This document shows positions 1 to 55,939 of a stretch of 64,000 nt of DNA, in pieces. This stretch comes from Escallonia rubra (Eukaryota; Streptophyta; Magnoliopsida; Escalloniales; Escalloniaceae), in the NCBI GenBank assembly GCA_033065855.1, contig JAVXUO010000028.1, positions 1 to 64,000 of the forward strand, in the 5' to 3' direction. Numbering within the stretch: the first letter of the stretch is position 1; every line of letters starts with the position of its first letter. Made by a program: the position numbers and the translations under genes. The notes under the pieces were generated by a model. That model was not told the origin of the DNA, made no database searches, and saw only the letters and a list, made by a program, of their open reading frames with translations.

Positions 1-362
1 AGAATTAGCGACGGATTCACCGTCGCTAAAAATCCCTCGTATAAAAGCCCGTCACTAAAAGTTTAGCGACGGAATTTTTAAATCCGTCGCTAAATATGTA
101 ATTTTTACCGACGGATTTATTATTCATTAGCGACGGAATGTCCGTCGTAATTATATTTTTAAAATTTTAATTTATTTTCTTTCGTCCAATTAGCGACGGA
201 ATATTAATATTTAGCGACGGAATATTCCGTCGCTAAATAGCTTATTTAGAGACGGAATATTCCGTCGCTAAATATTAATATTCGTCGCTAAATATTAATA
301 TTCCGTCGCTAAATATTTTTATTGAAAGGATATTTTAGCGACGGAATAAATCCGTCGCCAAA
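1..362. repeat. CACTA subterminal repeats, 3' side
   Basis: About fifteen copies of a TTTAGCGACGGAAT-like word occur in both orientations, with degenerate spacers rich in AT. Pairs of opposite copies can fold back on each other (for example near 195-310). In CACTA elements such words bind the element's own TNPA-type protein. The stretch 363-545 is AT-rich spacer with nothing else recognisable. Confidence 0.85.
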
Positions 363-622
363 AGTCAATTTTTTTTTTAAATTTTTTTTTTTAATTTTTC
401 AATTACCTAAACCTGTACAGAAATACAATTCTCAACAACAACGCGCAATAAGCGAAATACAGAAAAAAATATATAATCAATTAGAAAAAATATTTATTAT
501 AAAGGAAAGTAATACATGTACAAGCCGGTAACCGGAGATAGCCGGTTAGGAGAGGGGAGAAGAGTACAACCCGGGCGCGGGGGGGGGGGGGGAAGCTAGG
601 AACGGGCACGGGAAGGGGCTCA

Positions 623-2260
623 TCAGGGGTTCCCGAGTCCCGGATCTGGATCCTGCTGAACCGGGGCCGGGGCGGCTGGTCCAGCAGTGCCCTGCTCCCT
701 CATCATCCGGCACACCACTGTAGCAATGCGCTCGATATCCTCCTCGTGCAAATGAGGCCGAGGCGCCGGTGTCTGGAGGGGCAGCAGGGGGTGAGGACGC
801 TCCTATCACGGCACGAGGAGTCGTGCTAGGCAGGCCGCGTATGCGGCCTTTCGGCCGATTCACGACCTCCGGCGTATCCAGCCATCGCTTCAACCCCCCA
901 GTACGCGCAGCCGTACTAGTGGACGCTGACGGCTCTCCGGACTGCTGCTCTTGGACCTTAGCTGTTCATACGAGGCCTGCAAAAATAGTGGTTTAACGAT
1001 ATGTTATGGCATTAATTAACGAAACAGACATCGAGGATAGAAAGAAACAGATTAACTTAAATAAATTGACTCACATCGATCCGCCGGGCAATATCTGAAA
1101 TATAGTCGCCCGCCTGGTGCGTCTCGTCCTTGTCCTTCTTCCGCACGTGCGTCTGAGTATAGGTCAGAGCTATGACCTCATCCTCCAGATCCGGGTGCTC
1201 GACCGCGTTCATATGTCGGACGATGTCGTGTGGCACCGACCCCCCCTGTGTGCGTCGGATCTCTGTTCTGTCTGTTCTTGAGCCCCGCTCTTACTCTTGG
1301 CGTCCCAACCTGGATCCGCAGCCCACCGATCTATCATCTCCCCCCATACACGGTGAGATATCCAATGTGGGGGATATTTCGTCATGTCCGTCATCGGGGC
1401 ACCCGCGGGCAGCGCCCTCTTCGCCCGGTCCCGTGCATCGTGGAGCCATCGGCGGTAATTCTTGCCGATGTAATTAAAGAAAGCCTGCTGCCCCAGTCCC
1501 TGCTGCTCAGGCGTATCAAACGTGAACCCCTCCTGTAATGCATTCAATAACACAAATTAACAACATAAAACAAACTGTAATTTAACATTTACTAACGCTG
1601 AAAAAAATACTTCACCGTACCAGCCACTCCTCCCATAGGGCCTCCCTCGCAGCGGCATCCCATTCCTTCCAGTACAGGCGTGGCTCGAAGAATCGGCCCT
1701 TCACAAGAACGCCGATCTTCGTCCTCGCCATATTCTCCAGGATCCTGCCAAAGAAGTAATTAAATTAATTAATACAGTTCAAATATAAATTAACACCCAA
1801 AATTTTTAAACATAAGGCATGAGGTGATATTTTTAGTACTTACAGGCCCTCCTGCGTGAGCGTAACTCTCTGTTTACGATGGGGGTCGATGCGTACCCCG
1901 CGTGTCGGACCACGGCCTCGTCGAGATCCTACAAAACACAGACATTAATACAGTTCAATATAAGGCATGCGAAAATGTACGAAACACCGTTATCAATTAT
2001 ACCTGAGGTAGAACCCACGGAAGATGGACACGGCTGGGGCGACGGCGATGCTGGGGCGACGGCGATGGCTGGGGCGACGGTGACGGCGATGGCTGGGCCC
2101 CCGATGGCTGTCCGCGATTACTCTGTGCCTCGTCATCAGTAGGCAATGACGAGGTGGGACTAACCGGGGAGGAAGCAGCTCGGCGTCCAGCCCGGCCACG
2201 AATAGCCCGTAGCCTATCCATATCTGACTTCATATAGATTATATACAAAGACATTAACAC
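623..2260 (-). pseudogene. TNPA-like CACTA protein (Ptta/En/Spm, Transposase_24-type), frameshifted
   Basis: This is a minus-strand gene with five inferred exons: 2260-2003, 1928-1844, 1744-1621, 1532-1075 and 976-623, all with GT/AG borders. The product would be the accessory protein that binds the subterminal repeats. Exon 1 encodes a Ser/Pro-rich tail repeat, exon 2 contains RGPTRGVRID (a motif typical of the family), exon 4 the region with WGEMIDRW and a His-Gly-Gly-Ser-like stretch, and exon 5 an EVVNRPKGRIRGL segment followed by a short helical C-terminus ending at a double TGA. The reading frame is broken by one-base slips in C/G runs near 2048, 1240-1246 and 894-899, and once more near 797-801. 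These could be decay or consensus errors in homopolymers. Family assignment is moderately firm; exon borders are inferred by eye. Confidence 0.72.
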
Positions 2261-2401
2261 GTGAAAAACAATAATTTAGGCATAAATCATCATCGGCACT
2301 ATATATATATATATATATGAACGGATGTGCAAAAACACATCAATAAACACCAAGTTCTAAAATGTTACTACATTTTTCCCGTGATGTTACAACATTACAA
2401 G

Positions 2402-5400
2402 TCAATCATTTTCAGTTTGCGAATCATCTTCATCACTATCCTCGTCGCCCTCTTCTTCGTGGGACTCGTCGTCCTCTTCATCTTCTAATTCATCCTCTTC
2501 ATCAGTAGACTCGGTCACATCATCTCCAACACTTTCAACATCTTCCGCGTCATCATCTACGACTTCTTCTCCCACAAGAAGTGTTGTTGGAAGAGGAAGA
2601 TCGTCCTCCTCGTTGTTGACCTCAACAGGGAACAAGACACGTGGTTGGTCGGCTTGAAAGGAGTCTAGCTCACTGTCATATGTCACGGGCAATTTCTTGG
2701 ACTTGATAGTTGTATACCAATGAGATTTGGGATTGGCGACGTCCTCCGCGTAAAAGACTTGTACAGCTTGACTAGCAAACACAAAGGGCTCGTCTGATGC
2801 AAGTCTTGACTTGACATTGACATCTACAATCCCTTGAGAGCTAACACGGATTCCTCTGCTGCATGTGACATCGAACCACGTACACTTGAACATTACCAGG
2901 CGGTTTTGGGAACCCAGATATGTTAGCTCAACAATCTCATCTAACTCTCCGTAAAAATCCATGCAATTCTCGGCATAACAGTCGCCGTTGACCAAGACTC
3001 CACTGTTTTGGGTTTGTTTTGTTCGGTCATCATCTTTTACGTTAAACCTAAACCCGTTGATGATATAACCTCCGTAACAGGATGTTTGTTTGTTAGGGCC
3101 TTCGGCTAGTAATTTCAAGCAGGAGGCCACTGGTCTATCCATTGACTGAACCTATTGTAGATGACGGTAAACATTAAGGATAAATCAGTATACTAATTGG
3201 CCACAGAACTGTATATAACACATAATATAATTTCGTTAAATAATCTTACACGGATTTTGAACCACTGTACAAATTGTGATTTCCGATGAGATTCAAGTCC
3301 AGCGGGATCAGTGATTAAAGATTCCGCATCGAACTCACTGCAAACCAATATGCATCTAACTCGCTTAACACACTTTCAATTATGTACAGCAATGTAAGTG
3401 AATTAAGACTTTAACTTACTCAACGAATGCCGAAACTTCATCGCAATTTAGAAGGGCATATATTGTTGCAGCACTGTACTCTTCATCTGTTAGCCATCGA
3501 GTATACGTTCGGCCGAACGGACTACCTGACTGCTTGAATATTGACAATTGCCCTTCCAAATTTGTGCTTGCTCCGGGATCATTTCGGCCTAGTTGATTTA
3601 ACCTTGTACCAACATCCGAACCGAAATATTGACTACAAAAGTTTACAAGTTCTTCCATTACGTAAGCCTCCGCAATTGAGCCCTCAACCCGAGCCTTATT
3701 ACGGACTTTTTTCTTTAAATGGAACATGAACCTAGAAGTTTAGGGAATCGAGTTAGGTGGAATATCAATGATAACAGATGTCGCATTAAGTGTAAACGAA
3801 CAACTGTAACAATTTAAGGATTACCTCTCGAAGGGATACATCCACCGATATTGCACGGGTCCACCCATCTTAGCTTCATATGCCAAGTGAACAGGCAGAT
3901 GCTCCATTGAATCAAAGAACGAAGGTGGGAAGATTTTCTCCAGCTTGCAAATCGTCACCACAATGTTCTTCTCAAGCACTTCCATGTTACTCACCCGGAT
4001 CGTAGAAGAGCATATATCTCGAAAGAAATGAGATAATTCAGTCAAAGTCTCGCAAACAACCCGTGGCAACAGTCCCCGGAAGGCAATAGGAATGAATCTC
4101 TCCATGAATACGTGGCAGTCGTGACTCTTCATCCCTTGGAACTTGCATTCCGAAACATTGCAACAACGAGATATGTTGGACGCAAACCCATCCGGAAGCT
4201 TCAAATTCTTAACCCACTGACAGACCTTCTCCACTTGTTTCTTGTCTAGACAGTAAGGTGCTTTCGGAAGTATGGTCCTCCCACTGACTGTCCGAGGATG
4301 CAATTCACGGCGTACACCCAACTGTTGTAGATCCCTTCTCGCTTTAAGGTGATCTTTCGATTTGCCCTTGACATTCATCACTGTGTTGAACACATTATCA
4401 AAAACGTTCTTCTCAATATGCATCACATCCATGTTGTTTCGGATAACGAGCGTCCTCCAGTAGGCTAACTCCCAGAAGATACAAAATTTTCTCCAGTTGT
4501 GCTCTTTCCCGAACCCTGCAATCTTCTGATCCGGCACACCCTTACCGTGTGGTATGTCAGTATCAAGTGCCTCCAGGTGTGAGAGTACTTCTTCACCAGA
4601 TGGGTAGTCCAGCGTGACAACCTCACGCTCGATTGTCCCGTCAAATTTATCCTTCTGCCTACGAAACTGATGGCCCGGTGGCAAAAGCTTACGGTGACAT
4701 CCGAACCACGAGGCCTTTCCGCCGTGCTTTAACGTATGACCGGGGTTCACGCCCATACAAGCAGGGCATGCTAGCTTCCCATGTGTGCTCCAGCCACACG
4801 TCATTCCCAATGCGGGGAAATCATGTATAGTCCACATCAAAGCAGCCCTCATCTGAAAATTTTGTTTAAGGGATGCATCATATGTTTCGACTCCATGATT
4901 CCATAATTGTTTTAACTCATCAATCAACGGCCTTAAATACACATCTATGTCCTTACCGGGACTCTTCGGCCCCGGAATAAGCAACGACAAGAACATATAC
5001 GGCTTCTTCATGCACATGCCTGGTGGAAGGTTGTAAGGGACAATAATAACAGGCCAACAGGAGTAAGGCGTGGTAGACTGACCGAAAGGGTTGAACCCAT
5101 CGGTTGCCAGACCAAGTCTAACATTCCGAACTTCCTGAGCAAAAACTGGATGCCTGCGGTCAAACTCCTTCCACGCCTCTCCATCAGCTGGGTGTGTCAG
5201 CACATCGGCATCGTTGCTGCGAGTCTCACGGTGAGCCCTCATATGTTCAGCCGTACTGGAGGAGTAGTACATTCTCTGAAGCCGTGGTGTGACCGGGAAA
5301 TATCGCAATATCTTCCATGCAATGTTTTTCTTCTTCCCTTTGTCCGGTTTGTACCTCGAATGATCACACACTGGACATAATGACAAATCCTTATTCTCTT

Positions 5401-6058
5401 TCCAGAATAATACACAATCGTTATTGCACGCATCTATCCGGTCGTAGCTCAACCCAAGTTTCCTCATCATCTTCTTCGCGTCATAGTACGACGGCGGTAG
5501 CTTTTCACTTTCGGGCAGTATTTCTTTGATGAAGGTAACAAACTCGTTAAAACCTTTCTCGCTCAGCCCGTGGTCTGATTTCAACTGTAATAACCTACTA
5601 ACCGCAGACAGCCGTGTGTGTTTCGGAGCTCCATCCCACAGCGGCTCTTCCGCAGCTCTCAACAACTCATAAAACTGATGAGCCCCCTCGTTCGGCGGTT
5701 GTGGCCTGTCGTTACCCCAGTCAACATTAGCATGCCCAACATCCATAATCATATCTCGAAAATCATATCGTGCCTCCTCCCTAACTTCAGTTTGACTAGC
5801 CAGGTTGGACGACAATACTATCGTTTCCCCGTGCTGCGTCCACCTTGTGTATCCACCCATAAAACCGTACCGACGAAGATGCCATTTTACTTCAATTCTT
5901 TTTCTCCAGTGCAACAACTCACATCTACCGCACGGGCACCTTATCTTATCAAGGTCAACATGTGCAGGATGCGCATAAGCGAAGTCGAGAAATTCGTCAA
6001 CGCGACACTCAAAATCTTCAGCATTCTTCCTTTTCATCCAACTTCGATCGACTGACAT
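2402..6058 (-). CDS. TNP2-type CACTA transposase (Transposase_21), four exons
   Basis: This is the catalytic protein of the element, acting in the nucleus on the CACTA termini. Exons read on the minus strand are 6058-3825, 3731-3420, 3337-3250 and 3151-2402, with GT/AG introns. Their summed length, 3384 bases, is exactly 1128 codons without an internal stop, which supports the splice model. In order the protein shows a transposase-associated N-terminal domain with a CPCGRC cysteine cluster (about residues 3-78), the long Transposase_21 core, a DUF4218 region ending FVQWFKIR, and a DUF4216 region (around NGFRF and TQNSGV). It ends in a strongly acidic Asp/Glu tail. The length fits full-size TNP2 proteins. 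The start at 6058 is the first Met before the conserved N-terminal domain. It is followed downstream by the TNPA-like gene on the same strand. Confidence 0.93.
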
Positions 6059-6800
6059 GACGACTGAATTATCGTACTGTATACCACCTTCAATAATGAC
6101 CAGTGATTAAGCATTGCCGATGTAAATATCAATGCATGAATGTTACAACACGTCTACATATTTCCCCTCCACTCTTGAACAGGTAGTGGTCCTATCCCAT
6201 TCAGAAAAGCACATGTTTATAAAACAGTGAATAACTCATGCTTAGTCCGATGTCTGTGGAAAATTCGGCAGCACCTCCCCGCATTTCTCCAAGTACACCA
6301 CATCGATTAGGTGTTCTAACATTCATCTAACCTTGCTCAGGAAGGTTTGACGGATGTTAGAACACCAGATCTGTATGCACCCGGAGAAACACACGAGAAC
6401 GTGTACCAAATATCCACGACATAGAACATAAAGCATGAGTCAAAATACTGTTTTATAAACAATTAGCTTTTCCAAACTGTCCAAACTGGACATCCAAAGG
6501 CTCATTACAAGGCATTACTTTGTAATGAGTACCTTTGAACGGGAACTAAGGGTTTTTATGCATGCATGTGTTCAGAAATTGATAAGATATGCAAGAATCT
6601 TTCCGAAATATCAAAACTGCAGAATGATCGTTGCATATGTTATCAATTCCACATTAAATAGAACTCGTTGGCAACGAGTTGAACCATCTCGTTGCCAATG
6701 GACTTCTCAAAACAACAATTAATATAAAGAAGGCAGGGTTTGTAAAGAACGAGTAATTGAACCATCTCTGGGCAACATGGAGTAATTATGGGATGTACAA
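6059..6800 (-). promoter_or_regulatory. Region upstream of TNP2, contains a long fold-back
   Basis: There is no convincing coding sequence. The main structure is an imperfect inverted repeat at 6204-6472 (separate entry), 146 bases upstream of the TNP2 start. A small perfect palindrome, AACTCGTTGGCAACGAGTT, lies at about 6661-6679. Leader exons of TNP2 could lie here but are not recognisable. Confidence 0.5.
6204..6472. repeat. Imperfect long inverted repeat (fold-back) upstream of TNP2
   Basis: The left arm (6204 to about 6335) and right arm (about 6341-6472) are reverse complements with scattered mismatches. Matching blocks include GTTTATAAAACAGT, CTCATGCTT and GGTGTTCTAACAT. The loop is only a few bases near 6337. 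It could be a MITE-like insertion, an inverted duplication that makes small RNAs, or a regulatory hairpin in the leader. Confidence 0.75.
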
Positions 6801-7480
6801 GGGCTAATTAGGGCTAATTAGGCTTAATTGGGTTATGTTAGGGCTAATTAATGTTAATGAGGGATAGTTTCGGATGATTATAGCTGACTAGGGTTGATTA
6901 GGACTAATTAGAGTTATGTAGTCCTAATTAGGGTTTAATTGTGCCGAGTAGTGATGATTAGTCCTAATTAGGGCTAATTAGGCTTAATTGGGTTATGTTA
7001 GGGCTAATTAATGTTAATGAGGGCTAGTTTCGGATAATTATAGCTAATTAGGGTTGATTATGACTAATTAGGGTTTAATTGTGCCGAGTAGTGATGATTA
7101 GTCCTAATTAGGGCTAATTAGGCTTAATTGGGTTATGTTAGGGCTAATTAATGTTAATGAGGGATAGTTTCGGATGATTATAGCTGACTAGGGTTGATTA
7201 GGACTAATTAGAGTTATGTAGTCCTAATTAGGGTTTAATTGTGCCGAGTAGTGATGATTAGTCCTAATTAGGGCTAATTAGGCTTAATTGGGTTATGTTA
7301 GGGCTAATTAATGTTAATGAGGGCTAGTTTCGGATGATTATAGCTGACTAGGGTTGATTAGGACTAATTAGAGTTATGTAGTCGTAATTAGGGTTTAATT
7401 GTGCCGAGTAGTGTTGATTAGTCCTAACTAGCGCTAATTAGGCGTAATTGGGTTATGTTAGTGCAAATTATGACTAATTA
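6801..7480. repeat. 160-bp tandem repeat rich in CTAATTAG
   Basis: Repeat starts align at 6801, 6961, 7101 and 7261, giving units of 160, 140 and 160 bases (the second carries a 20-bp deletion), followed by a decaying partial copy to about 7480. Each unit is built from shorter GGGCTAATTAGG-like words. 7480-7790 holds diverged continuations of the same words and no gene. Confidence 0.85.
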
Positions 7481-7796
7481 GGCTAACAACAATCAATATG
7501 CGCATAATTGGGTTCATTTGGGCTAATTTGAGGTAATTACAGCTAATTTGAATTTTATCAGGTTCTTAGGGTTAATTAAAACTAATTAGGCTCGTTAGAG
7601 CTAATTAGGGTTAATTGATTTACTAAAATATTGTTAATCAGGACTAATTAGGGCTAATTATAGCCAGCGCTGGAGCCACGATTAGATTCCAGGGGGTGCA
7701 TGCTAAAAATGTCGCATTAACCTAACTAACCTAAATTTAATGCACATTCAACAACCTCAATTCCGACACCTCATATAGGGTGTCGATATGGTGTCC

Positions 7797-7932
7797 GATA
7801 CGTTTCTGACACCTCCGGACACGTGTCAGACACATACCGACACGTGTCTGACACATACCGACACGTGTCCGACGCCTTTGGACACGTGTCCGACACCTCC
7901 GGACACGTGTCCGATGCCCAGCGACACGCACC
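7797..7932. promoter_or_regulatory. 21-bp-phased array of palindromic G-boxes
   Basis: The perfect palindrome GACACGTGTC starts at 7818, 7839, 7860, 7881 and 7902, that is five copies with an exact 21-base period. Degenerate copies sit in phase at 7797 and 7923. The core CACGTG is the G-box and ACGTGTC is an ABRE-type site; in plants such sites bind bZIP and bHLH factors. The array is 1.7-1.9 kb upstream of the TNP2 start, between other repeat blocks of the element. A regulatory role is inferred. Confidence 0.8.
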
Positions 7933-8026
7933 TCCGGACACATCGGCATACGTTAATTTGTTTTCTAAATGTCGGACACCGTCGATCAGACGTGGTGTCC
8001 GTGTCTGCGCTAACTAACAGGTATCT

Positions 8027-8410
8027 CAATCCAATTGGGTCCCATCCTCCGTCAACAATCTCAATTCTCAATTCTCAATTCTCAAATGCTCAATGCAATA
8101 AAAATTAACAAAAATCACACATTCAATCCAATTGGGTCCCATCCTCCGTCAACAATCTCAATTCTCAATTCTCAAATGCTCAATGCAATAAAAATTAACA
8201 AAAATCACACATTCAATCCAATTGGGTCCCATCCTCCGTCAATAATCTCAATATCTCAAATGCTCAATGCACAATCTAAAATCATCAATTAACAACCTAA
8301 AATCATCAATTCATAATCGCAATTACTTCAAATGCACAGCTAATAACCTAAAATCATCGATCAATAATCACAATTCTAAAACGCACAATTAACAACCTAA
8401 AATTATCAAA
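8027..8410. repeat. 90-97-bp tandem repeat and related AT-rich words
   Basis: Units beginning CAATCCAATTGGGTCCC start at 8027, 8124 and 8214 and continue with CTCAATTCTCAAATGCTCAATGC-type words that decay into scattered copies to about 8410. Open frames through this block are by-products of the repeat. Confidence 0.8.
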
Positions 8411-8459
8411 CAAATGATCAATGTTCAAATGGGAAAAAAATGTTCAAAATTCACATATC

Positions 8460-9424
8460 CGATGCGCTTGAATTATTTCAATTTAGGGTTCGATTGTATT
8501 AGGGCATTCAATTTAGGGTTCAATTAGTTTCATTTAGGGTTCGGTTCGATTAGGGCATTCAATTTAGGGTTCAATTACTTCAATTTAGGGTTCAATTAGG
8601 GGGTTCTATTGATTCAATTTAGGGTTCAGTTGATTTGAGGCATTAAATTTAGGGTTCAATTAGTTCAATTTAGGGTTCGGTTGGATTAGGGCATTCAATT
8701 TGGGGTTCAATTAGGGTTCGGTTAGATTGGGGCAATCAATTTAGGGTTTAATTAGGGGTTCAATTAGTTTAATTTAGGATTCGATTCAATTAGGGCATTC
8801 AATTTAGGGTTCAATTATGGGGTTCTATTGATTCAATTTAGGGTTCGGTTGATTTGAGGCATTCAATTTAGGGTTCAATTAGTTCAATTTAGGGTTCAAT
8901 TAGTTCAATTTAGGGTTCGGTTGGATAAAGCATTCAATTTAGGGTTCAATTTGGGTTCGGTTAGATTGGGGCAATCAATTTAGGATTTAATTAGGGGTTC
9001 AATTAGTTTAATTTAGGGTTCGATTCAATTAGGGCATTCAATTTAGGGTTCAATTACTTCAATTTAGGGTTCAATAAGGGAGTTCTATTGATTCAATTTA
9101 GGGTTCGGTTGATTTGAGGCATTCAATTTAGGGTTCAATTAGATTGGGGCAATCAATTTAGGGTTTAATTAGGGGTTCAATTAGTTTAATTTAGGGTTCG
9201 ATTCAATTAGGTCATTCAATTTAGGATTCAATTACTTCAATTTAGGGTTCAATTAGGGGGCTCTATTGATTCAATTTAGGGTTCGGTTGATTTGAGGCAT
9301 TCAATTTAGGGTTCAATTAGTTCAATTTAGGGTTCGGTTGGATTAGGGCATTCAATTTAGGGTTCAATTAGGGTTCAGTTAGATTGGGGCAATCAATTTA
9401 GGGTTTAATTAGGGGTTCAATTAG
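8460..9424. repeat. Telobox-like array (AATTTAGGGTTC) with 240-bp higher-order unit
   Basis: Dozens of AATTTAGGGTTC-type words follow one another. They contain TTTAGGG, the common plant telomere heptamer, and its complement AACCCTAA, the telobox core. A marker word (GATTGGGGCAATC) recurs at 8725, 8964, 9142 and 9382, spacings 239, 178 and 240, so the array has a higher-order unit of about 240 bases with one shortened copy. The heptamers are separated by other sequence, so this is not a telomere tract. Confidence 0.85.
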
Positions 9425-10049
9425 ACCCGTCGCTAAAAATCTATTCCGTCGCTAAAAATCTTCATCAAACTATGGCTTAATTAGTAGCTCAGCCACGAGG
9501 AGCACACAAAACTCAATGTTTGCCATAACCATGTCACATAACGTAACTTCCAACTAGGGCAAAAACAACAAACAAAAGTCAATGTTTGCACGCTCGAATT
9601 TAATTCTATTCTAAGGAACTTCGCCAAAAAATGAAATGACTTACGATATCACACAGAGGTCAAGGTTCACTTGCTATGAAATCATATCAGCACAATGCAA
9701 AGTCAAGAACGTACATATTGAAGACAGAAGACAAAGAGACATACATTCGATCCAAAGCTGCCGGAGGTGAGAAGGGTCGTAGGGTGGTCGTCGATGCTCG
9801 CCGGAACCGTGGGTGGTCGCGAGTCGCGACTGTCAAGCACTGTAGTGGGTTGAAATGGCTGTTCACAGGAGCTCGCCGGTGTCGCGTGGCTGTTCACAGG
9901 AGCTCGCCGGTGTCGCGGGAGCTCGCCGGTGTCGCGGGAGCTCGCCGGTGTCGGGGGAAGTCGCCGGTGTCGCGGGAAACGATGTCGATGCTCGGGAGAA
10001 AGCTGGTGCCCTAATTGAATTGCCTCAATTTGAAATACATCTAATCTTT
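9425..10049. other. Spacer with two subterminal words and a 19-bp GC-rich repeat
   Basis: Two GTCGCTAAAAATC words occur at 9427-9461. At 9866-9975 a GGAGCTCGCCGGTGTCGCG unit (19 bases) is repeated about five times, once interleaved with a longer unit that includes TGGCTGTTCACA. Frames that stay open across it are repeat artefacts. This region may hold the 5' leader of the CACTA transcript. Confidence 0.55.
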
Positions 10050-10368
10050 TTAAAGCCTTTACCGACGGAAAATACCGTCGGTAAAAGTCCGTCGGCAAAA
10101 CCGAACTTTCACCGACGGGTATTTTTACCGACGGGATTATTCCGTTGTTAAATAGTTTTACCGACGGGTGTGTTCTGTCGGTAAAAGTCCGTCGGCAAAA
10201 CCCTACTTTCACCGACGGTTATTTTTACGGACGGAATTATTCCGTCGTTAAATAGTTTTACCGACGGACGTTAAGCGACGGGTATGTTCCGTCGCTGAAA
10301 CGACTTTTAGAGACGGAATTTCGTCCGTCGCTAAAAGTCCGTCGCAAATTGAGTCTTTTCTTGTAGTG
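10050..10368 (-). repeat. CACTA subterminal repeats and 5' terminal inverted repeat
   Basis: CCGACGGA/TCCGTCGG words in both orientations fill 10057-10266. The outermost copies (10272-10345) switch to GCGACGG, the form seen at the left end. The terminal repeat, CACTACAAGAAAAG on the minus strand, occupies 10355-10368. Confidence 0.92.
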
Positions 10369-10371
10369 GTG

Positions 10372-10562
10372 GTGCCCGTGGGCATGTAACATGATTGTGG
10401 CGCATGGGCGCGATGAAGTGCGTAAGGTGCCGGGGGCACGTTTGTATCAATGGTGGTGCATGGGCGCGATAGAGTGTGTATGGTGCCGGGGGCACGGTAG
10501 TGTCAATGGTGGCGCATGGGCACGACATAGTGCGTATGGTGCCGGGGGCACGGTAGTGTGAC
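10372..10562. repeat. 56-bp tandem repeat flanking the CACTA end
   Basis: The word GGTGCCGGGGGCACG occurs at 10426, 10482 and 10538, exactly 56 bases apart, with a degenerate earlier copy. It is GC-rich and contrasts sharply with the AT-rich transposon beside it. The word is itself a near palindrome. No gene is supported. Confidence 0.8.
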
Positions 10563-10642
10563 AGAGAGCCTGGGGGCATGGCTGTGTCAGCGGCGCGACG
10601 CGGTGAAGTGTTGAAGTGCGACGCCCGGACACCAGTGACGGG

Positions 10643-10861
10643 GTCGCGGAGTTGTGTCCTGGCGACGGGGGTCACGGAGTTGTGTCCGGGCGACGGGGTC
10701 GCGGAGTTGTGTCCGGGCGACGTGGTCGCGGAGTTGTGTCCGGGCGACGTGGTCGCGGAGTTGTGTCCGGGCGACGTGGTCGCGGAGTTGTGTCCGGGCG
10801 ACGGGGGTCGCGGAGTTGTGTCCGAGCGACGGGGGTCGCGGAGTTATGTATGGTCCCTTGA
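10643..10861. repeat. 27-bp GC-rich tandem repeat, eight copies
   Basis: Copies of GTCGCGGAGTTGTGTCCGGG start at 10643, 10671, 10698, 10725, 10752, 10779, 10807 and 10835. The 27-base unit is a multiple of three, so several frames stay open on both strands; I regard these as artefacts. The unit is rich in CpG. Confidence 0.88.
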
Positions 10862-10879
10862 AGAGAAGTGAATGTGCTA

Positions 10880-11040
10880 AGGATGGAGGCCAAAGGCCAA
10901 CCCTTCGGGGAAGGCCAAGGCCAACCTCAAGGGGAGGTCGAGGCCGACCCCAACGGGGAGGCCGAGGCCGACCCCAAGGGGAAGGCCAAGGCCGAGGCCG
11001 ACCCCAAGGGGGAGGCCAAGGCCAACCTCTTTGGGCAAGT
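10880..11040. repeat. Short GC-rich repeats (AAGGCCAAGGCC / GAGGCCGACCCC)
   Basis: Imperfect units of 12-27 bases alternate AAGGCCAAGGCC and GAGGCCGACCCCAA. The open frames read through them are low-complexity and not supported as genes. 11041-11240 is unremarkable unique-looking sequence. Confidence 0.7.
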
Positions 11041-11284
11041 GCCATGGCGCATCGACGGGCGACGGGCGAAATGCGATGGTCGAAGCGTGATAAGGCTTCG
11101 TGCGAAAATAAGTTTCTTAGTGACGAAGTAACGTGACGAAAGTGAGAAGTGCACGTGACTTGAGCGTGCATGCTTTGACCGGTTGTGAGCGTTGAAAATG
11201 ACTGTTACTTGTGCGGACGTGTCATGCAAAATGGGACCACAGTGGTACGACCAGAATAGGTTGGGAACAATATGTAAGTTTTTT

Positions 11285-11665
11285 GGTCACATTTTTTTTG
11301 CTCATTGCACCTTAGGCACGCTATATAGCCCATTTCTATGAATTTCGGCGAAAAACGAGACAAATTATTTTTTTGGTTTTCCTATGAAGGGCCTATTCGC
11401 GCACACTTTAGCGCCAAATTTATAACTTGCGAAAAATGTTGTAATTGATTTGGTCACTTTTTTTTTGCTCATTGCTCCTTAGGCACGCTATATAGTCCAT
11501 TTCTATGAATTTCGGCCAAAAATGAGACAAATTATTTTTTTGGTTTTCCTATGAAGGGCCTATTCGCGCACACTTTAGCGCCAAATTCATAGCTTGCAAA
11601 AAATGTTGTAATTTTTTATGTCACTTTTTTTTTCTCATTGCACCTTAGGCATGCTAGTTACCCCA
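11285..11665. repeat. 166/167-bp satellite-like tandem repeat, about 2.3 copies
   Basis: The marker CTTAGGCACGCTATATAG starts at 11311 and 11478, and a diverged copy at 11644: spacings of 167 and 166 bases. The unit carries a T-run, CGGCGAAAAACGAG, and CCTATTCGCGCACAC. Copies are highly similar. The unit length is close to nucleosomal satellites, but only two full copies are present. 11666-11814 shows no feature beyond a short TA repeat. Confidence 0.82.
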
Positions 11666-11814
11666 TTATAGTATGACGGATGTAGTTAGAAACATATATT
11701 CCCAACATTTTACATGCTTCAAAAGACGGGATTCGCTAATTAGAATGACATGTGGATAAGTGCCGGTTGGAATGAAATCCTAACATGCAGTAGGAAGAGA
11801 TATATATATATATA

Positions 11815-12249
11815 TCACTCTTCATTTGACATATACTCATCAGATAAGTACTGATCATTGGTTAAAATATTGTTTCTCTCGTTTGATTTGAGCTGCCTCC
11901 CACTAACCTCGGCCATTTCTTCCGCAAGTTGAAGCATATAAAATCGTTTTCTACGCAGCAACATCCGGTTATTCTCCATACGAATTTGGCGCACAGCTTT
12001 CTTACACTGCTTAACATTACGCCGCGACATAGTAAGTGAACGACGTTGCGGCACAGGTGCTCTCAGCGTGGTGAGATCTTGGTGTAGCGCTTCTGATTCC
12101 TTAACTCGATATGCCCATTCTCTCCGTAAACCGCAATAATACTCTCTGGGATCCGTGTACTTCACTTCTTTGTAGTCGTCGTTCCTTTCACACAACAACC
12201 ACACAGTCTCACGTCCCCGCAGACTAGAACTCCCAGGAATTCCTGCCAT
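11815..12249 (-). CDS. Small unknown protein (144 aa), paralogue of the gene at 12639-13070
   Basis: I do not recognise a family. The protein has a tryptophan/tyrosine segment LRREWAYRVKESEAL, a proline-containing linker (APVPQRR), a basic and probably helical segment with IRMENNRMLLRR, and an acidic C-terminus (LSDEYMSNEE). The same layout and many of the same residues appear in the divergent neighbour: LRxEWxYRxxExExL, PxP, a Met-x-Arg, then IRxENNRM. Similarity at protein level, with different codons, is good evidence that both are real coding sequences. A basic helix plus acidic tail would suit a DNA- or protein-binding accessory factor, but that is inference. A TATA-like TTTATATATG lies about 40 bases upstream and a short upstream frame starts at 12281. 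Whether it belongs to the FAR1-type transposon to the right is unknown. Confidence 0.62.
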   Translation of the reverse strand: MAGIPGSSSLRGRETVWLLCERNDDYKEVKYTDPREYYCGLRREWAYRVKESEALHQDLTTLRAPVPQRRSLTMSRRNVKQCKKAVRQIRMENNRMLLRRKRFYMLQLAEEMAEVSGRQLKSNERNNILTNDQYLSDEYMSNEE

Positions 12250-12638
12250 TTAACTTTGTTTTGGTTCTAAAGCGATGAGCATGGCTAACATATATAAATA
12301 AGCCCACACACACATACACAATATATTGGTGTGATAGCTACACAATAGTCTGTCCATCTCTGGTGACAAGACAAGTCTCTGGACATTGAAGATGACAATA
12401 GTTGGAGACAATAGCATGCCCGTGTCATAAAGTTGACAAGTCTTTGGTGACAAGACAATTCTCTTTGGTCACAAGACAAGTCTCTAGTCTATTTCCAAAG
12501 GCTTGTCATATCTCATAAAGTTGAACCTGTAGCTCTTTCATAAAGTGGTCCCGTTTCAAAGTATATATAAGTACATGCATTGCACGAAGGGCAAAGGGCA
12601 TAGAGTGATATACTCCCAATTTCATAACAACTCTGGAA
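12250..12638. promoter_or_regulatory. Shared divergent promoter region of the two small genes
   Basis: This 389-bp gap between two head-to-head genes has a TATA-like sequence facing each: TTTATATATG on the minus strand near 12290 and GTATATATAAG on the plus strand at about 12560-12570. The latter is about 70 bases from the plus-strand start codon. The word GACAAGACAAGTCTCT and variants recur three or four times (about 12364, 12405-12440, 12450, 12470) in the middle, a possible shared binding site. Confidence 0.5.
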
Positions 12639-13070
12639 ATGTCATATACTCCACGAGATATTTTTGAAGCAATGGGTCGTTACTGGGCGGGCGAAGATGA
12701 ATTTCACTATTCTTTGCGTCCAAGTTTGCGTTACTCATCAAGCTATGTTAATACATTACGTGCAGAATGGTCTTATCGGATGAATGAACATGAGGTCTTA
12801 GTAGCTGATTCACGGAGCATGAATATACCCATACCTCGACAAAAGGCAATCAACATGCCTCGAATTACGCACATGGAGCTTGAAAGGGCACTGCATCGAA
12901 TACGTGAGGAAAATAATAGAATGAGAGTTCGTCAAAGTAGGCATAACTTACGTCGTATGGCACGTGATGCACATGAAGATGGCAACAACAATGAAGCACA
13001 AGTATACTGGAACATGAGCTTCGAAGAAGGAAATGTTTCCGATGCTCCAGTTTCAGATGAAGATGACTGA
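12639..13070 (+). CDS. Small unknown protein (143 aa), paralogue of the gene at 11815-12249
   Basis: No family is recognised. The N-terminal third has aromatic residues (IFEAMGRYWAGEDEF), followed by LRAEWSYRMNEHEVL, a linker with NIPIPRQ, a basic, probably helical stretch containing IREENNRMRVRQ, and an acidic tail ending PVSDEDD. It aligns over most of its length with the oppositely oriented gene on the other side of a 389-bp spacer. The start is the first Met after the TATA-like box at about 12562. A long hairpin begins 28 bases after the stop codon. The conserved EWxY, PxP and ENNRM signatures in two diverged copies suggest a maintained function. Candidates are an accessory gene of a MULE-type transposon or a host gene pair trapped between repeats. 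Confidence 0.65.
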   Translation: MSYTPRDIFEAMGRYWAGEDEFHYSLRPSLRYSSSYVNTLRAEWSYRMNEHEVLVADSRSMNIPIPRQKAINMPRITHMELERALHRIREENNRMRVRQSRHNLRRMARDAHEDGNNNEAQVYWNMSFEEGNVSDAPVSDEDD

Positions 13071-13097
13071 AGATCGAGTTCTTCTAAGGCTATAAGG

Positions 13098-13431
13098 CCT
13101 CCGCTTAGGCCAGAGTTCGGGAAGGTCGGAACTAAGTGTCTGGTCCGTGCCAACCATTTTTTGGTCCAAGTTGCAGACAATGATCTGCTGCACCACTATG
13201 ACGTAAGCTTGGTCATGTATTCTGCGGGGCTGTCCGCTATACTATATAGCGGACATATATAGGAGAAAAAAAACTAAGGCGTGTTTGAGACTTTGCCTCT
13301 GCGGGGCTATCCGCTATACTATATAGCGGACCTAGGATAGAAAAATGGTTGTTTGCAACTTGGACCAGAAAATGGTTGGCACAGACTAGGCACTTAGTTC
13401 CGACCTNCCNGANCCCCGGCCNAAGNGGAGG
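13098..13431. repeat. Inverted repeat with ~88-bp arms, contains five N
   Basis: The left arm (13098-13185) and right arm (13344-13431) are close reverse complements; shared blocks include AGGTCGGAACTAAGTG and TGCCAACCATTTT. The loop of about 158 bases carries two direct copies of the CCGCTATACTATATAGCGG palindrome. Ambiguous bases at 13407, 13410, 13413, 13422 and 13426 all fall in the right arm. This could be a MITE, a pair of inverted element ends, or a hairpin RNA source. Confidence 0.8.
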
Positions 13432-13543
13432 CAGTATGTCCGCGATGTAGTAGAGCTAGACGTTGTACCGGACTGCAGTTTTAATAAATTGGCGCCCAAA
13501 GACTTGTTTTAGTCGCATTGTAGCATAATGCTGTTTTAATAAA

Positions 13544-13796: not shown

Positions 13797-14265
13797 TTAG
13801 GGTTCACATTGGGGGAAAGAATTTTTTTCACAAGTGCTCCGATCAAAGATTACAACTTGAAAATCCCACCACCCAAGGTGTTCAAACACTACAAAGTCCC
13901 CGAGTTCGAGGCCATGCTGGCGCACGAAGACGTTCCAACCCTCTGCGAATTGCTTTTTTTGGGGTCGGCCGGGCTTCAGCTTGATTTCAACCTGCCATGC
14001 CCCCTTGCGGCTATATAATCTTGCACTGTCATGAATTGTTGTAAATTGATTGGTCAAGGCTTCCGGTATGTCCTAACAAACACAATACAAAAAATAGGTT
14101 AGTTTTTAACCAAAAGATCAAACCTTTAACACACGAAAATACAGAGAAAGAGGGATGGCCTACAAGTTCATTCTCAAACCCCGGCATCATGACTTTGAAA
14201 AAGTGTTTGCCTGCCAGGTGCAAGTTGCCAATAAAATCGTAGGTGGTCTCCGATCCAGAAGCCAT
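13797..14265 (-). CDS. Small B3-domain protein (REM-like), two exons
   Basis: Exon 1 is 14265-14164 (34 codons) and exon 2 is 14072-13797 (91 codons plus stop), joined by a GT/AG intron of 91 bases; the frame joins in phase. The 125-residue product is essentially a single B3 DNA-binding domain: KHFFKVMMPGF at the start, then DIPEALTNQF, W-Q-V-E-I, FAEGWNVFV, LELGDFVVFEH and FQVVIFD in the usual order. B3 proteins of this kind bind DNA in the nucleus. The gene is unusually short, a lone B3 domain with almost no flanking sequence. It sits between a hairpin and a palindrome array that also flanks the FAR1-type transposase, so capture of a host gene by the transposon is plausible. A domesticated or native gene surrounded by repeats is the alternative. 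Confidence 0.78.
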
Positions 14266-15063: not shown

Positions 15064-17359
15064 TTAAAGGTCCACTGCAGCTTGTTCGTCCTCATCTTCG
15101 GCGTCACCTTCTTCCCCGTCTTGCAAACCCCCTGAACTTATCCCCAGTGCCTTGTAATGGTTCCGCTTGTCGTGGTCGGTCATTTTGTTGCACAATGCAC
15201 ACCTTCGCAGCTTTTTAGGTTGAGTTGCCGTTTCAATAGAGCTTTTCATCCGCGTAGATCTCTTGCGGCCTTTCGTTTGCGATATAATTGGATCCAACAA
15301 ACGGATATCATTGTCGTCTTCCTCCCCCGGCTCGTCATCTTCTGATACCCCCGTCGTAGGCTCGGTGTCAATCGCATTGGTGACTGAAGCTGCTTCCAAC
15401 TGGTCGACGATGGGCTCTTGCTGCTGAGCTACCTCGAGGAGATGTTTATAACCGACCATTGAAGCAGCATCCTTGACGGACAAACGGGTGAAACTCGTCA
15501 CCAGATGATTATACCGCAACGTCTCTGATTCTTCAAAGTCAGTATACGGGTGCTCCGGAAAGGCAATGGTACCGTGCAACCTGTTAGCACCTTTCGTCCA
15601 CCGTGGCAAGACGTATTTATCGGGGATTGTCCTGATATTCTTCTGGGTGAAAAAGCGCAGAATGTGTCTACACAGGATGCCATGGAACTCAAACTTCTTG
15701 CAAACACATGTCACCGAGTCCGTCAATGTGTCGTGGCTCACCGTATACATTCTGCGCAGCTTCTCAGGAACGAGGTCATTCACGAGCGAATAAACCTTGT
15801 ACTCACGCGTAGACTTCTCTGCCACCTTGTTTATACAGTACCGTCCCGATTTCTGCAGCTCTACTTGGTATAGCAAGAAGATCTCCTTCGTATAGACTTT
15901 GGCACCGTTCAGCTCCAGCAGGGTCTCAAGCAACCTTCTCCTCTGTTTGTACGTGGTTGCAAAGTCTCAGCCCTTTCTTTCACGAACAACGTCGCAACCG
16001 CTTTCTGTGCGGATGTGACGAAACTCTTCAAATTGGTAGTTGTACCCACGTAACTATCGAACGTGGCATTCATAGATTCACTCCTGCCCGTCGTTTTCAT
16101 GCCCGCAGAAAAATGCCTCCTCGTGTAAACGCCAATCCATTGCTCTTTGAGCTCGTACAAGTGCTGGAGCCACCCGTTGTCTTGCAATGAGTAATCCTGA
16201 ACAAGCTTTTCCCACCTCTCCTCAAATTCCTCAATCGTTAACGACTTGCTAACGCACGTGTCAAAATCCTCTTTAAAGTCTAGAAACTTTGCGTACATGT
16301 GATGCAAACGTTCGGGGTATTTGTTGCTTATGTGCCAAGTGCACAAGTTGTGTCGAGTATCTGGGAAGACGGTGGCAATAGCCTTCTTCATTGCCAAATC
16401 TTGATCGGTGATGATAACGTTGGGTGCTTTGAAGTTCATGGCTTCCAGCCACACACTAAACAACCATTCAAAAGAACTCTCGCTCTCGTCCCTTAACAAG
16501 GCGAACCCGAACAGGATGGAGTGATAATGATGATTGACCCCCGTGAAAGGGGCAAACGGCATCGAGTACTTGTTGGTACGGTATGTGGTGTCGAAAGTCA
16601 CGACATCCCCAAAATGCTTATAAGCAAGCCTCGAACGACCGTCGACCCAAAAAATTGTGCTAACTCGATGCTCGTCGTCAAGTTTATAATCGAAGGTAAA
16701 CTGCAGGTCCTCCATCTGCATCCGCTTCAATAGGCTCATTGTGGCTTGAGCATCATTGAGGTCATACGCGGCTCGTCTATGGGTTCGGACCGCGTTGCGA
16801 ACGTCTGTCGTGTTAAAGTTTAAATTTTGAATTCCCCCGGCTTGTTCAGCAAGAACATTAATCATGTCGGTAGGTCCTAGCCGCGCATCGCTCATTGTGT
16901 GAATGAGGCTCCTCGCGACCTTTCCCATCTTCTTGTGTTGATGCATCTGACTCACCTTAGAAGGGGTTACTAACGGGTGATTGTGTGCCAGTTCAAGGCT
17001 GGTAATAAGCCAATGATCTTGCTTGGCTTTATAGCTTACGAACATCTTGACCTGACAATTCGTTCGCGCAAAGAAGTCCCGTCTTCTGCGCGAATATCCT
17101 ATTTCGCCATCACTGTCATCGTTGCCTACGCGTGTCTCATTTTGCACTGGGTTTCTGCCCCTATGGCACTCGTATAAGCGAGAGCATATCTTTCTCGTTA
17201 TGTTGCTCGTTCTTGAAGTCTTTATTCTAATCCCAACCTAACCTTCAATGAATACGCTCGGAAACATTCTCCAGCTTCTTCCAATGTTTGAAAGGTTCGT
17301 CCTAGATACAGATCACTAGCATCTACAGGAGTGTTGGAGCTCGACACGAAATCAGACAT
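15064..17359 (-). pseudogene. FAR1/MULE-type transposase, two frameshifts
   Basis: The gene starts at 17359 and ends at 15064. It encodes, in order, a FAR1-type DNA-binding region (from RTFQTLEEA to the LAHNHPLV end), a MULE transposase core with Asp in VVTFDTTYR and IITDQDLAMKK and Glu in the FEWLF segment, and a SWIM zinc finger (CVCKKFEFHGILCRHIL). A Glu/Asp-rich C-terminus with a further CALCNKMTDHDKRNH cysteine/histidine group follows. This is the layout of FAR1-related Mutator-like transposases such as Jittery. The frame shifts near 17232 (a GGG run, giving a premature TAA) and near 15966. Each can be explained by one missing G on the coding strand, so decay and consensus error are both possible. 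The palindrome arrays on both sides suggest subterminal repeats of this element, but clear terminal inverted repeats were not found. Confidence 0.88.
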
Positions 17360-17944: not shown

Positions 17945-18242
17945 GTCCGCGATACTGTATAGCGGAAATTATTCCCGACACTCTGACACGTGCAGAAATA
18001 AAGTCCCTGAAAGTCAGGCTGACAGCTGTCAGGTCCGCTACATTGTATAGCGGATACCTTTTTTGCTGTCTTGTGTCAGGCAGGGGTCAGGTGTCAGCCT
18101 AGGGACGTCCGCTACACAGTATCGCGGACGTCTTTTGGCTGTCTCCCATCAAGACTTTAATGTCCTCCGCCATACAGTGTAGCGGACAGTGGCGGAGGGC
18201 AAAAAGGTAAAAAAAACCCGTCCGCCATACATTATGGCGGAC
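17945..18242. repeat. Five diverged hairpin palindromes, 5' side of FAR1-type gene
   Basis: Palindromes of the TCCGCTA...TAGCGGA type start at 17945, 18034, 18108, 18166 and 18221. They differ in the centre (ACTG, CATT, CACAG and so on) while both arms change together, for example TCCGCCAT...ATGGCGGA in the last one. An unrelated 12-base inverted repeat (GACCGTCCATC / GATGGACGGTC) follows at 18276-18303. Confidence 0.82.
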
Positions 18243-18414
18243 GACTGACAGCTTTTGAAAAAGGCACGGATCTGGACCGTCCATCATTCGGGATGGACGG
18301 TCAGATCGCGTTTGCAACTTCTCCTATTTTGCCCACGCTCTCAACGGATCAACTCATATATATATATATAGGTTTCTGAACATTGGATATAACTGATAAT
18401 CCTTACCCCCCCCC

Positions 18415-53428: not shown

Positions 53429-55939
53429 ATGTCGCAGAATCCTAATCCGCAAGCTCAGTTAGGAGGAGCCCCTCCACCAGGGTCATCTTCAGCTCTGATA
53501 CACGACCCAGTTCGGGGGGTCTCCACATCTCAACCGCCCAATCGCGGCAAAAAGATTATGGGTGCGCCATCCATCACTACTATGGCGCGAACCACTGCGG
53601 TACCTGTAATCCCTGCAGTAATACCAACTGTCGTAACGGCACCGACATCTATTGCAGTGGTACCGCCGGCGGTGACATTCACTCCTCCATCCGTAAACAC
53701 AGTCTTGCGTCCACTCCAAACTATTGGCGTATCTGAACCTCCCTTTTCTAGTGTCACCACAATGGGAGTAAACATCACTCAATCTACGGATAACCAAACC
53801 GACCTGATGGCCATTATCCGAGCAATGCAACAATCTATTGAAAAATTGCAAGCTGCTATAGAACATCCGCCTCCACAGTCGGAACCTCTCAGGACTCCGG
53901 GCACTTCAAAGACCCCGGAACAAACAAGTCACAACCAACACGAGACCCAGGAGGCAAATGAAGAATTTGACGACGAAAGGCGGAACCCAAGATCTAGAAA
54001 GCGTCGAGAAAATTATAATGAGGCTCACTCTTACCCCAATACTGGGGGTAATCGGGCGGAACAATACTCCAACGCTCCAATTATAACTGGACAGCCATTC
54101 TCCAAAGAGATCGATCTCTTCCCAACTCCTCCGAACTTCAAAATGCCTCCGTGCGAATCATATGATGGCAAGGGAGACCCAATGGAACACTTAGCCCGCT
54201 TTACCTCAGGGATGAATCTGCATCTGGTGCCTGATCAAATAATGTGCCGAGCTTTCCCTGTGACGTTAAAAGGAGCCGCGCACGTATGGTTCCAGCACTT
54301 AGCTCCTCGTCCCATTTCTTCCTGGGCCCAGTTGGCCGAATCATTCCGAAGCACTTTCCTCCCAACTCGCATTTAGAGGAAGCATTCTTCGGCCCTTTCT
54401 CCTATAATTCAGGGACCAAGGGAATCCCTAAAATCATACTACGCTCGCTTTAACACTGAAAAGCTCCTTATCGATCATTTGGATCCAGGAGTAACCTTTG
54501 CGGCGATGGCTAGGGGAGTCAGGCTGGGAACGCCTCTACATTTCTCTTTGAACAAACGCCCACCAGAAAATATGTCAGATCTCATTAGCAGAGTGGAGAA
54601 GTATCTTCGGGCAGAGGAGGATTCGACATCGTCACAACAAGAAGAGATTCACTCTGGGCAGAAGAGGCGCGATCGTCCGGAAGGGAACAATCAGGATGAA
54701 CCCAAGCGTCCGCGAGCGCCCCTCTCAAAGTCATTTACTCCTCTTAATACTACACGCGGACATATTCTTCACCAAATCAAAGGCCAAAACATCCTCAAAT
54801 GGCCCAAGCCTATGAGAGGTCCAGCGGAGAGAAGGGATACTCAAGTATACTGCCATTTCCACAAGGACCACGGTCACACGACAGAAGAATGCAAGGTGCT
54901 TCAGCGAGAAATAAAGAATCTCATCGCTAGGGGACACTTTAAGCAATTCGTCAAAAACAACCATCGAAAGCAGACTGGGGGAAGAGGTAACCCTCGAAGA
55001 ACAGACGAAGCACCCCAAAAAGATCCGCATGTTAGACATACCATCTCTGGAGGACCCAGCGCCGGCGGCCTATCTAGCTCTTCACGAAAAGCCTATGCTA
55101 GACAGGTAAATCTTGCACAAGGACCGGCAAAGCGAGCAAAAGAACTCACCTCGCTGGAATTTGACGACGCAGATCTTGAGGGAGTGAGCCTTCCACATGA
55201 TGATGCCCTCGTCATCACTTTGAGGATAGATGCTTTCCAAGTCAAACGCATCTTGGTCGATACAGGAAGCTCGGCCGACATCCTTTTCGACGATGCATTC
55301 AATCAAATGGGGATCTCTGAGGATAGGGTAAAGCCAATATCTTTTCCTTTGTACGGCTTCACAAGTGCTTCTGCACCGGTAAAAGGGATTGCCTCCCTTA
55401 CGGTCGTCGCAGGAGAAACGCCTCGTCAGGCGGTGCATACACTCGATTTCCTTATTGTCAAAGTTAAATCGTCGTACAATGGGATTTTGGGACGAACAGG
55501 CCTCAACAAACTGCAGGCAGTGGCATCAACCTACCATCTCATCATGAAGTTCCCTACGCCAACGGGAGTTGGTTATGTGAAAGGAGATCAGATTCTAGCC
55601 CGAAGGTGTTACGTGGCATCGTGCAGGGTCGAAGAGACTCTCTCTATTGACGATCAGCGAGACGAAAATACTTTGAGGCGCGCGGAGCCTGTAGAAGCTC
55701 TTGTTTCTGTCCCAATCAGAGAGGGGGATGAAGAGCGACAAGTGAGGATTGGTTCAATGCTGGAGCCAAGAGTTAGAGATCAGCTAGTCTCCTTCCTTCG
55801 ATCCAATATGGACGTCTTCGCATGGAGTGCGGCGGACATGCCGGGCATTGATCCGTCAGTAATCACTCACCAGCTTTCAATCGATCCCAAGTTCAAACCC
55901 GTCAAGCAAAAGAAGCGACCTTGCGCCCAAGCAAGATAG
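53429..55939 (+). pseudogene. Gag-protease, one internal stop
   Basis: Start at the ATG 41 bases after the LTR. Residues 1-210 are a Pro/Thr/Ser-rich head with a short coiled coil. The gag core follows (FKMPPCESYDGKGDP, then HVWFQHLAP). An in-frame TAG at 54374 interrupts the end of the gag core; the same frame continues with SYYARFNTE and the rest. Further on are a zinc knuckle (CHFHKDHGHTTEEC, about 54850-54892) and a retropepsin with ILVDTGSSADILF (about 55250). The frame ends with TAG at 55937, where related elements usually read on into RT. Gag packages RNA; the protease matures the polyprotein. Both stops can be explained by single C-to-T changes (the first less certainly). Confidence 0.9.

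Follow-up and report, generated by a model that had tools for sequence, protein, structure and literature searches.

The genome of Escallonia rubra carries a pair of small, anciently duplicated and divergently arranged genes, A and B, that are part of a FAR1-type Mutator-like element (MULE) and are almost certainly accessory genes of that element. We put a probability of roughly one half on the explanation that best fits the evidence as a whole, in which A and B are element-encoded regulatory or anti-silencing partners of the MULE; they probably help the element to stay active. The pair was found in a 64,000-nucleotide stretch (hereafter the window; positions 1–64,000 of contig JAVXUO010000028.1, assembly GCA_033065855.1), which comes from a 566-Mb assembly of 3222 contigs. 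The features of the window copy are as follows.

11273–11667, array of 167-bp tandem repeats that lies downstream of A and belongs to the repeated element
11815–12249, minus strand, ORF A: 144 codons, pI 9.5; predicted at low confidence to form a helix at ~34–61, a P-x-P linker, a basic helix at ~76–115 and an acidic tail
12250–12638, A–B spacer: 389 bp, presumed bidirectional promoter, TATA-like boxes on both sides (by eye)
12364–12380, 12448–12464 and 12469–12485, plus strand, three copies of the word TGACAAGACAAGTCTCT (GACAAG word): 3 found, 0.19 expected
12639–13070, plus strand, ORF B: 143 codons, pI 5.9, paralogous to A, whose layout it shares
13097–13432, internal foldback: arms 13097–13180 and 13349–13432, palindromes at 13233 and 13310, length variable between copies
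13797–14265, minus strand, B3-domain gene: probably two exons, approximate ends by eye; B3 (PF02362) detected on its counterpart in the copy on contig C1428
14446–14916, palindrome array: nine TCCGCTATAnnnTATAGCGGA palindromes (palindrome search)
15064–17045, minus strand, FAR1-type MULE transposase: broken here into overlapping frames 15064–15921 and 15909–17045
17946–18355, subterminal palindromes of the right end, with the right TIR at about 18088–18355
18356–18370, (TA)n run that adjoins the right end and is presumably the target microsatellite

A and B as a paralogous pair

An earlier note, made from the letters of the window alone, had described two frames of 144 and 143 codons facing away from a 389-bp spacer and had called their products related. 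Both frames are present and intact in the window copy, and the relatedness is borne out by a gapless alignment in which 27 of 78 residues are identical (E=1e-15). In tblastn searches of the window A and B find each other at 3e-12 in either direction, and the remaining matches have E values of at least 0.26, revealing no third copy there. The 27 in-register identities compare with at most 15 in 2000 codon shuffles. Over the 78-residue stretch, codon positions 1, 2 and 3 are 51%, 55% and 37% identical, with pN at 0.447 and pS at 0.765; because synonymous sites are saturated, the dN/dS between A and B that the note had asked for can be given only as well below 1. Chance ORFs are ruled out by the A–B homology, the shuffle test and the dN/dS of B between families given below.

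The shared motifs that had been read from the translations, LR-x-EW-x-YR-xx-E-x-E-x-L, a P-x-P linker, IR-x-ENNRM and an acidic tail, all occur in A and B. AlphaFold models built on 5-row alignments predict two long helices in each protein (34–60 and 75–113 in B, 34–61 and 76–115 in A) at low confidence (pLDDT 65 and 60, pTM 0.38 and 0.37, for B and A, respectively). The second helix carries a charge of +9 in A and +4 in B, and the tail one of –4 and –9; DNA binding by these proteins would be a guess from composition.

Neither protein falls into a recognised family, as the note had also said: Pfam, NCBIfam and PHROGs returned no match over their cut-offs. Against Pfam, A gave nothing at E up to 1 and B gave FAM167 alone, at E 0.028 and under its cut-off; the DUF1985 and DUF287 domains of VANC are absent from both. 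For B, the single weak match in PHROGs (E 0.42) and the weak matches to HEXIM1 chains among PDB sequences (E 0.33–0.34) are not significant. A scan of viral contigs with B and one of a genome-contig collection with A found no relatives. The possibility that A and B are mere fragments of a larger known family is unsupported in the three libraries. An N-x7-R spacing after ENN looked suggestive of bZIP proteins; kinship with that family was dropped, as Pfam was empty and no leucine zipper was seen.

The spacer between the genes has a TATA-like box on either side (by eye) and, as noted earlier, a repeated word, TGACAAGACAAGTCTCT. With up to three mismatches this GACAAG word occurs three times in the window, always within the spacer; 100 shuffles give an expectation of 0.19. 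In six full-length copies of the element it is confined, at up to two mismatches, to the A–B spacer, with 2–3 sites per copy. The sequence TGACAAGACAAGTCNCTGG occurs 672 times genome-wide and its reversed control 0 times.

A multi-gene MULE flanked by TA microsatellites

Searches of the genome returned many further copies. For protein B, the best 150 of 1357 candidates are 97–100% identical and 145 of them lack an internal stop; for protein A, the best 150 of 1355 are 95–100% identical and 142 lack a stop; for the spacer DNA, the best 40 of 580 candidates were taken. All three sets were collected best-first and are biased to good copies. Twenty-eight loci were fetched, counting the window copy itself. 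They align with the window across A, B and the flanking sequence, and the longer ones do so, in pieces, from ~11270 through the transposase and towards or up to 18370; A, the spacer and B occur together in 29 loci. The repeat common to the copies comprises the A region, B, the foldback, the B3 gene, the hairpin array, the transposase and the right TIR, with interruptions at variable arrays. Thus, the block in which the earlier note had placed the pair, with a FAR1-type transposase, a B3 gene and hairpin arrays, is one repeated element, and its suggestion that A and B are accessory genes of that element is supported by the shared repeat and by selection on B, more firmly for B than for A. Copy number and shared element boundaries rule out an independent host gene pair. 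The foldback at 13097–13432 was also considered as a separate MITE and dropped, as it is internal to the repeated element and differs from copy to copy; its right arm contains a few N (13407–13425) in a stretch that is otherwise readable.

Six copies have both ends and measure 11,470, 11,619, 12,287, 11,614, 11,864 and 11,697 bp (one end placed by eye in two of them). Each has TIRs of ~285 bp at both ends, the outer right end recurring inverted at the left end; such an inverted copy lies at the left end of 8 contigs, 88–95% identical to the TIR of the window and partial in one. Apart from small variants the ends have the sequence GGGAGCTGATCCGTTGAGAGCGTGGGC, and all 15 ends read, from 9 loci, abut a dinucleotide run, which is (TA)n in 14 and (TC)n followed by (TA)n in one. 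A target site duplication of 8–11 bp is not readable because the ends sit in these runs. In two contigs, C1995 and C825, MULE ends lie next to each other, their TIRs separated by no more than a short TA run, as in the non-nested arrays of SaTar. Several contigs, such as C1334, C1457, C582 and C463, stop a few kb past a B copy, as if the assembly broke inside the element.

Gene content was established with Pfam on one copy, C1428. From the left it comprises the left TIR, a plant-mobile-domain (PMD) gene (PF10536, 5e-70), pieces of a C48 protease (5.7e-6 and, under the cut-off, 0.017), a 78-bp tandem array, A on the minus and B on the plus strand, the foldback, a B3 gene on the minus strand (PF02362, 4.4e-11), a palindrome array, the transposase on the minus strand and the right TIR. 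The transposase is a single 769-aa frame with MULE (PF10551, 2.7e-32), FAR1 (3.8e-13) and SWIM (3.6e-5) domains. The window copy lacks what other copies have to the left of ~11256, and the left part of another copy, L009, has no match in window positions 1–11300. By its FAR1, MULE and SWIM domains in C1428 and its TIRs, the element is a FAR1-type MULE, whose transposase would presumably fall in the Jittery group, and by its (TA)n flanks it is a TA-microsatellite-targeting MULE.

The non-coding DNA of the element is densely set with a 21-bp palindrome, TCCGCTATAnnnTATAGCGGA, of which every one of the six full copies carries 23–34 sites at up to three mismatches, against 0–0.05 in mononucleotide shuffles. 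In C1428 all sites lie between the frames, in both subterminal regions, the 78-bp array, the stretch after B and the gap between B3 gene and transposase, with none in the A–B spacer; the clusters of the other five full copies are at corresponding positions.

Elements that insert into TA microsatellites (MuTAnT, SaTar, Micron, TAFT) and MULEs bearing PMD or Ulp1 genes are both on record in the literature cited here. MuTAnT/AutoMuTAnT of Medicago and the SaTar/AgS-MULE elements of guayule and rice are likewise MULEs with TIRs that end in (TA)n or other microsatellites, and the AutoMuTAnT transposase is Jittery-like (PMC4486113, PMC5907723). AutoMuTAnT, however, is given as 4.9 kb with one ORF and a guayule AgS-MULE1 copy as 5.3 kb in those accounts, whereas the present element spans 11.5–12.3 kb and adds PMD, C48, A, B and B3. 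Its TIR starts with GGGAGCTGATCC, which does not, by eye, agree with the search mask for MuTAnT, GGGGTTTGCTAGAACA (PMC4486113); with another TIR (by eye) and several genes, it is not a member of the MuTAnT family proper. A PMD gene antisense to the transposase is shared with MUDR-type MULEs (PMC6446971), and C48 pieces recall the Ulp1 (C48) domain of Kaonashi/KIU of Arabidopsis (PMC13317346). By contrast, the dicot/monocot Jittery group in the table of PMC6446971 has an ORF number of 1, FAR1 and no PMD, and the available text of that source makes no mention of A/B or B3 for MUDR-type or Jittery MULEs. The literature searched, with subscription journals mostly outside its scope, contained no MULE with this gene set. 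The combination of PMD, C48 and B3 in a FAR1-type element, together with a divergent paralogous pair outside the searched libraries, had thus not been seen before in that literature, and it extends TA-targeting FAR1-type MULEs from a one-gene to a multi-gene element.

Selection, and the occurrence of B in other families

Variation was compared across 26 copies mapped on the window, leaving out the window copy (L001), L004, L007 and the separate pieces of stitched copies. With several values resting on few pairs, pi was 0.0109 in A, 0.0101 in B, 0.0049 in the main B3 exon (13817–14050) and 0.0145–0.0199 in the transposase, compared with 0.02–0.17 in most non-coding parts, among them the stretch after A (0.026), the spacer (0.0325), the stretch before the transposase (0.036), and the palindrome array and TIR (about 0.1). 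Values from few pairs depart from this pattern in two places, with 0.011 in the non-coding foldback and 0.0248 in the presumed first B3 exon, which is no lower than in the presumed intron. At pi ~0.01, A and B are no more variable than the transposase.

Across 29 copies, B shows 9 synonymous variants and 14 others, split 7:2 among shared variants and 2:12 among those found in a single copy, as expected under selection during the spread of the family and drift after landing. A shows 19 synonymous variants and 39 others, with shared ones at 0:5. The one-sided binomial p is about 0.03 for each gene, on counts that omit the second partial copies of L004 and matches not spanning the query. In A, one locus (L007) has a 40-column gap, L026 and L028 have one-base gaps and one copy has a stop; B has no gap in any of the 29 loci, which were chosen for B. 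As copies of this family (family 1) were picked by their match to protein B, B is whole by choice, and A, B3 and the transposase were not so picked but are linked to it.

B also occurs outside family 1. The IRxENNRM pattern written with another choice of codons is found at 101 places, and the three fetched carry B orthologues (family 2) with DNA 87–91% identical; a further codon-choice pattern gave 6 places, 5 A-like and 1 B-like by the 35 bases matched. In a comparison with two of the family-2 orthologues and one more sequence, the second residue of the LR motif varies (LH) and the other motif residues are kept. Between family 1 and the three family-2 orthologues, dS is 0.27–0.37 and dN 0.055–0.097, giving ratios of 0.21–0.26, and none of 2000 simulations yielded so few replacements in any of the three comparisons. 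For B, then, neither an absence of homologues from the genome nor a dN/dS near 1, the outcomes that the earlier note had named as counting against it, was found. Its claim of selection on both genes is upheld for B by the ratios of 0.21–0.26; A, with its 19:39 variants, shared ones at 0:5 and damaged copies, is less well shown. In our judgement B is very probably under selection for a function in the element, and A probably so.

MULEs capture genes. A and B might be host genes captured in the manner of Pack-MULEs and have no function for the element, a reading that gains from the damage to A in some copies and from a published phylogeny by which PMD genes were captured twice (PMC5418596). The low dN/dS of B between families weighs against it, as do coding stretches that vary less than most of the non-coding DNA of the same copies and the recurrence of B close to PMD or transposase genes in three groups whose gene orders differ, and we hold it to be very unlikely.

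The surroundings of B differ between families. Only ~100 bp upstream of family-2 B resemble family 1, including the TATA box and a GAAGGGCAAAGGGCAT leader, so that the box before B is kept in the second family. Farther upstream, at one locus, lie repeats of ~565–590 bp, each with the GACAAG word, which occurs three times within the 1.6 kb upstream of one family-2 B; kept near B in families 1 and 2, this word is the better candidate for B's own control. We saw no A in the 2.4 kb upstream of one family-2 B, nor within ~0.8 kb of two others, which suggests that A may not be needed everywhere. Downstream, although family-2 B is 85–90% identical, a different palindrome, CGTGGTTnnAAACCACG, recurs in the 1.5 kb read after one copy; the locus C940:757240–758740, downstream of one family-2 B, has a 17-bp repeat of the B end and a degenerate series of CGTGGTTnnAAACCACG palindromes. 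Selection has thus kept B between two families while its surroundings and repeats changed.

With family-2 B as query, the first 92 of the best 150 of 1352 candidates are 89–100% identical, most of their frames being 160 or 166 aa long, and the later ones belong to a third group at 86–88%, mixed with family 1; this group is known from coordinates rather than letters and was distinguished by ranking higher and by its layout. Family-2 B lies 6.8–12.0 kb from 12 of 24 PMD matches of one type, a type picked after viewing the list of 112 scored, against 0.15 expected within 12 kb; six of these matches lie downstream and in opposite orientation, the other six upstream and in the same orientation. In the third group, four B genes have an upstream MULE transposase on their own strand, 3509–3713 bp away, where 0.4 would be expected within 5 kb. 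A listed MULE transposase lies near family-2 B only once, about 8.5 kb away on C983, which is within chance. From these coordinates alone, we infer that B and the PMD or transposase genes near it form one element in groups 2 and 3.

The other neighbours and orders around B in the second and third groups, and homology between families that ends ~100 bp upstream of B, would also suit an independent small mobile module, or a pair traded between elements, that was not original to the MULE. Repeat searches of the window found no inverted repeats bounding the pair, and no fetched family-1 copy is without A and B, a weak point since the copies were sampled by B; we regard such an origin as quite unlikely.

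PMD-bearing MULEs seem common in this genome: other MULE transposase matches, on C2034, C1738, C95, C2131, C1974, C84 and C85, have a convergent PMD match ~3–6 kb away. Four whole-profile PMD matches in a row on C922 (1278226–1296817; E 1e-112 to 2e-109) may represent host PMD genes clustered in tandem.

Possible roles of A and B

VANC is, to our knowledge, the best-worked example of how plant transposons outrun silencing. The present element, recently amplified and with several candidate helpers and dense palindromic arrays in its non-coding DNA, offers named genes and motifs open to direct test. VANC of the Arabidopsis VANDAL MULEs binds short motifs in tandem non-coding repeats and strips methylation, and VANDAL21/Hiun with VANC resembles our element in its extra genes and in short motifs in tandem in non-coding DNA (PMC5735166). 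The intergenic motif clusters and several extra genes found here fit a VANC-like kind of system. VANC has the domains DUF1985/DUF287, whereas A and B are proteins of 144 and 143 aa with no Pfam match over cut-off, and the motif here is a 21-bp palindrome. For MULE-captured PMDs, a role in anti-silencing has been put forward as speculation by the authors of PMC5418596.

We suggest that A and B are small nuclear partners, each with two predicted helices, a P-x-P linker and an acidic tail, that would be expressed jointly from a single putative bidirectional promoter. They would act in trans on the DNA or chromatin of their own element, keeping it expressed and mobile, as a module working beside the PMD/C48 and B3 proteins in element-encoded regulation or anti-silencing. 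The GACAAG word would be a putative regulatory site of the A/B promoter, and the 21-bp palindrome probably serves as the site that one element-encoded DNA binder recognises, putatively the transposase, B3, PMD/C48 or A/B. As the palindrome differs between families while B is conserved, B itself may not read it; a role as its reader would need a change of specificity by few residues, which makes the transposase or another protein the likelier binder. A regulatory or chromatin role rather than some other one has, in our estimate, a chance just short of even. Anti-silencing in particular, argued from analogy with VANC, would be a tentative and rather unlikely choice. A still more specific scheme, also by analogy and rather doubtful, is that A and B together with the PMD/C48 protein read the element's own motifs, be it the palindromic arrays, the GACAAG word or both, and lift or prevent silencing, B being the portable core. 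If so, partner genes and target arrays would have been swapped between MULE families, and the function of VANC would have been invented independently in unrelated sequence.

A and B might instead be transposition cofactors that bind the transposase and TIR or subterminal DNA and serve cutting, integration or the choice of TA microsatellites, an alternative that we consider unlikely. A precedent is mudrB of maize MuDR, an additional gene next to the transposase whose function is uncertain (PMC6446971, PMC4486113); A and B differ from it in being a paralogous divergent pair. Among other MULEs with such extra ORFs, mudrB is apparently required for integration and mutB binds DNA, according to PMC6446971, and the (TA)n at the element's ends and an A and B as little variable as the transposase would suit the same role. 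However, AutoMuTAnT targets TA with a single ORF (PMC4486113), which indicates that such targeting is possible without A and B, and the stretches read near three family-2 B genes contain no A.

Other elements also occur in the window. A CACTA element has Transposase_21, DUF4218 and Transpos_assoc domains (Pfam) at 3821–6103 on the minus strand, and its right end reads CTTGTAGTG near 10371, preceded by hairpins of the CCGTCGGTAAA type. Assignment of A and B to this element was rejected, as that end lies, by eye, before the A/B block. Farther along, at 53429–58916, long frames resemble, by eye, the gag, reverse transcriptase and integrase of a Ty3-type retrotransposon.
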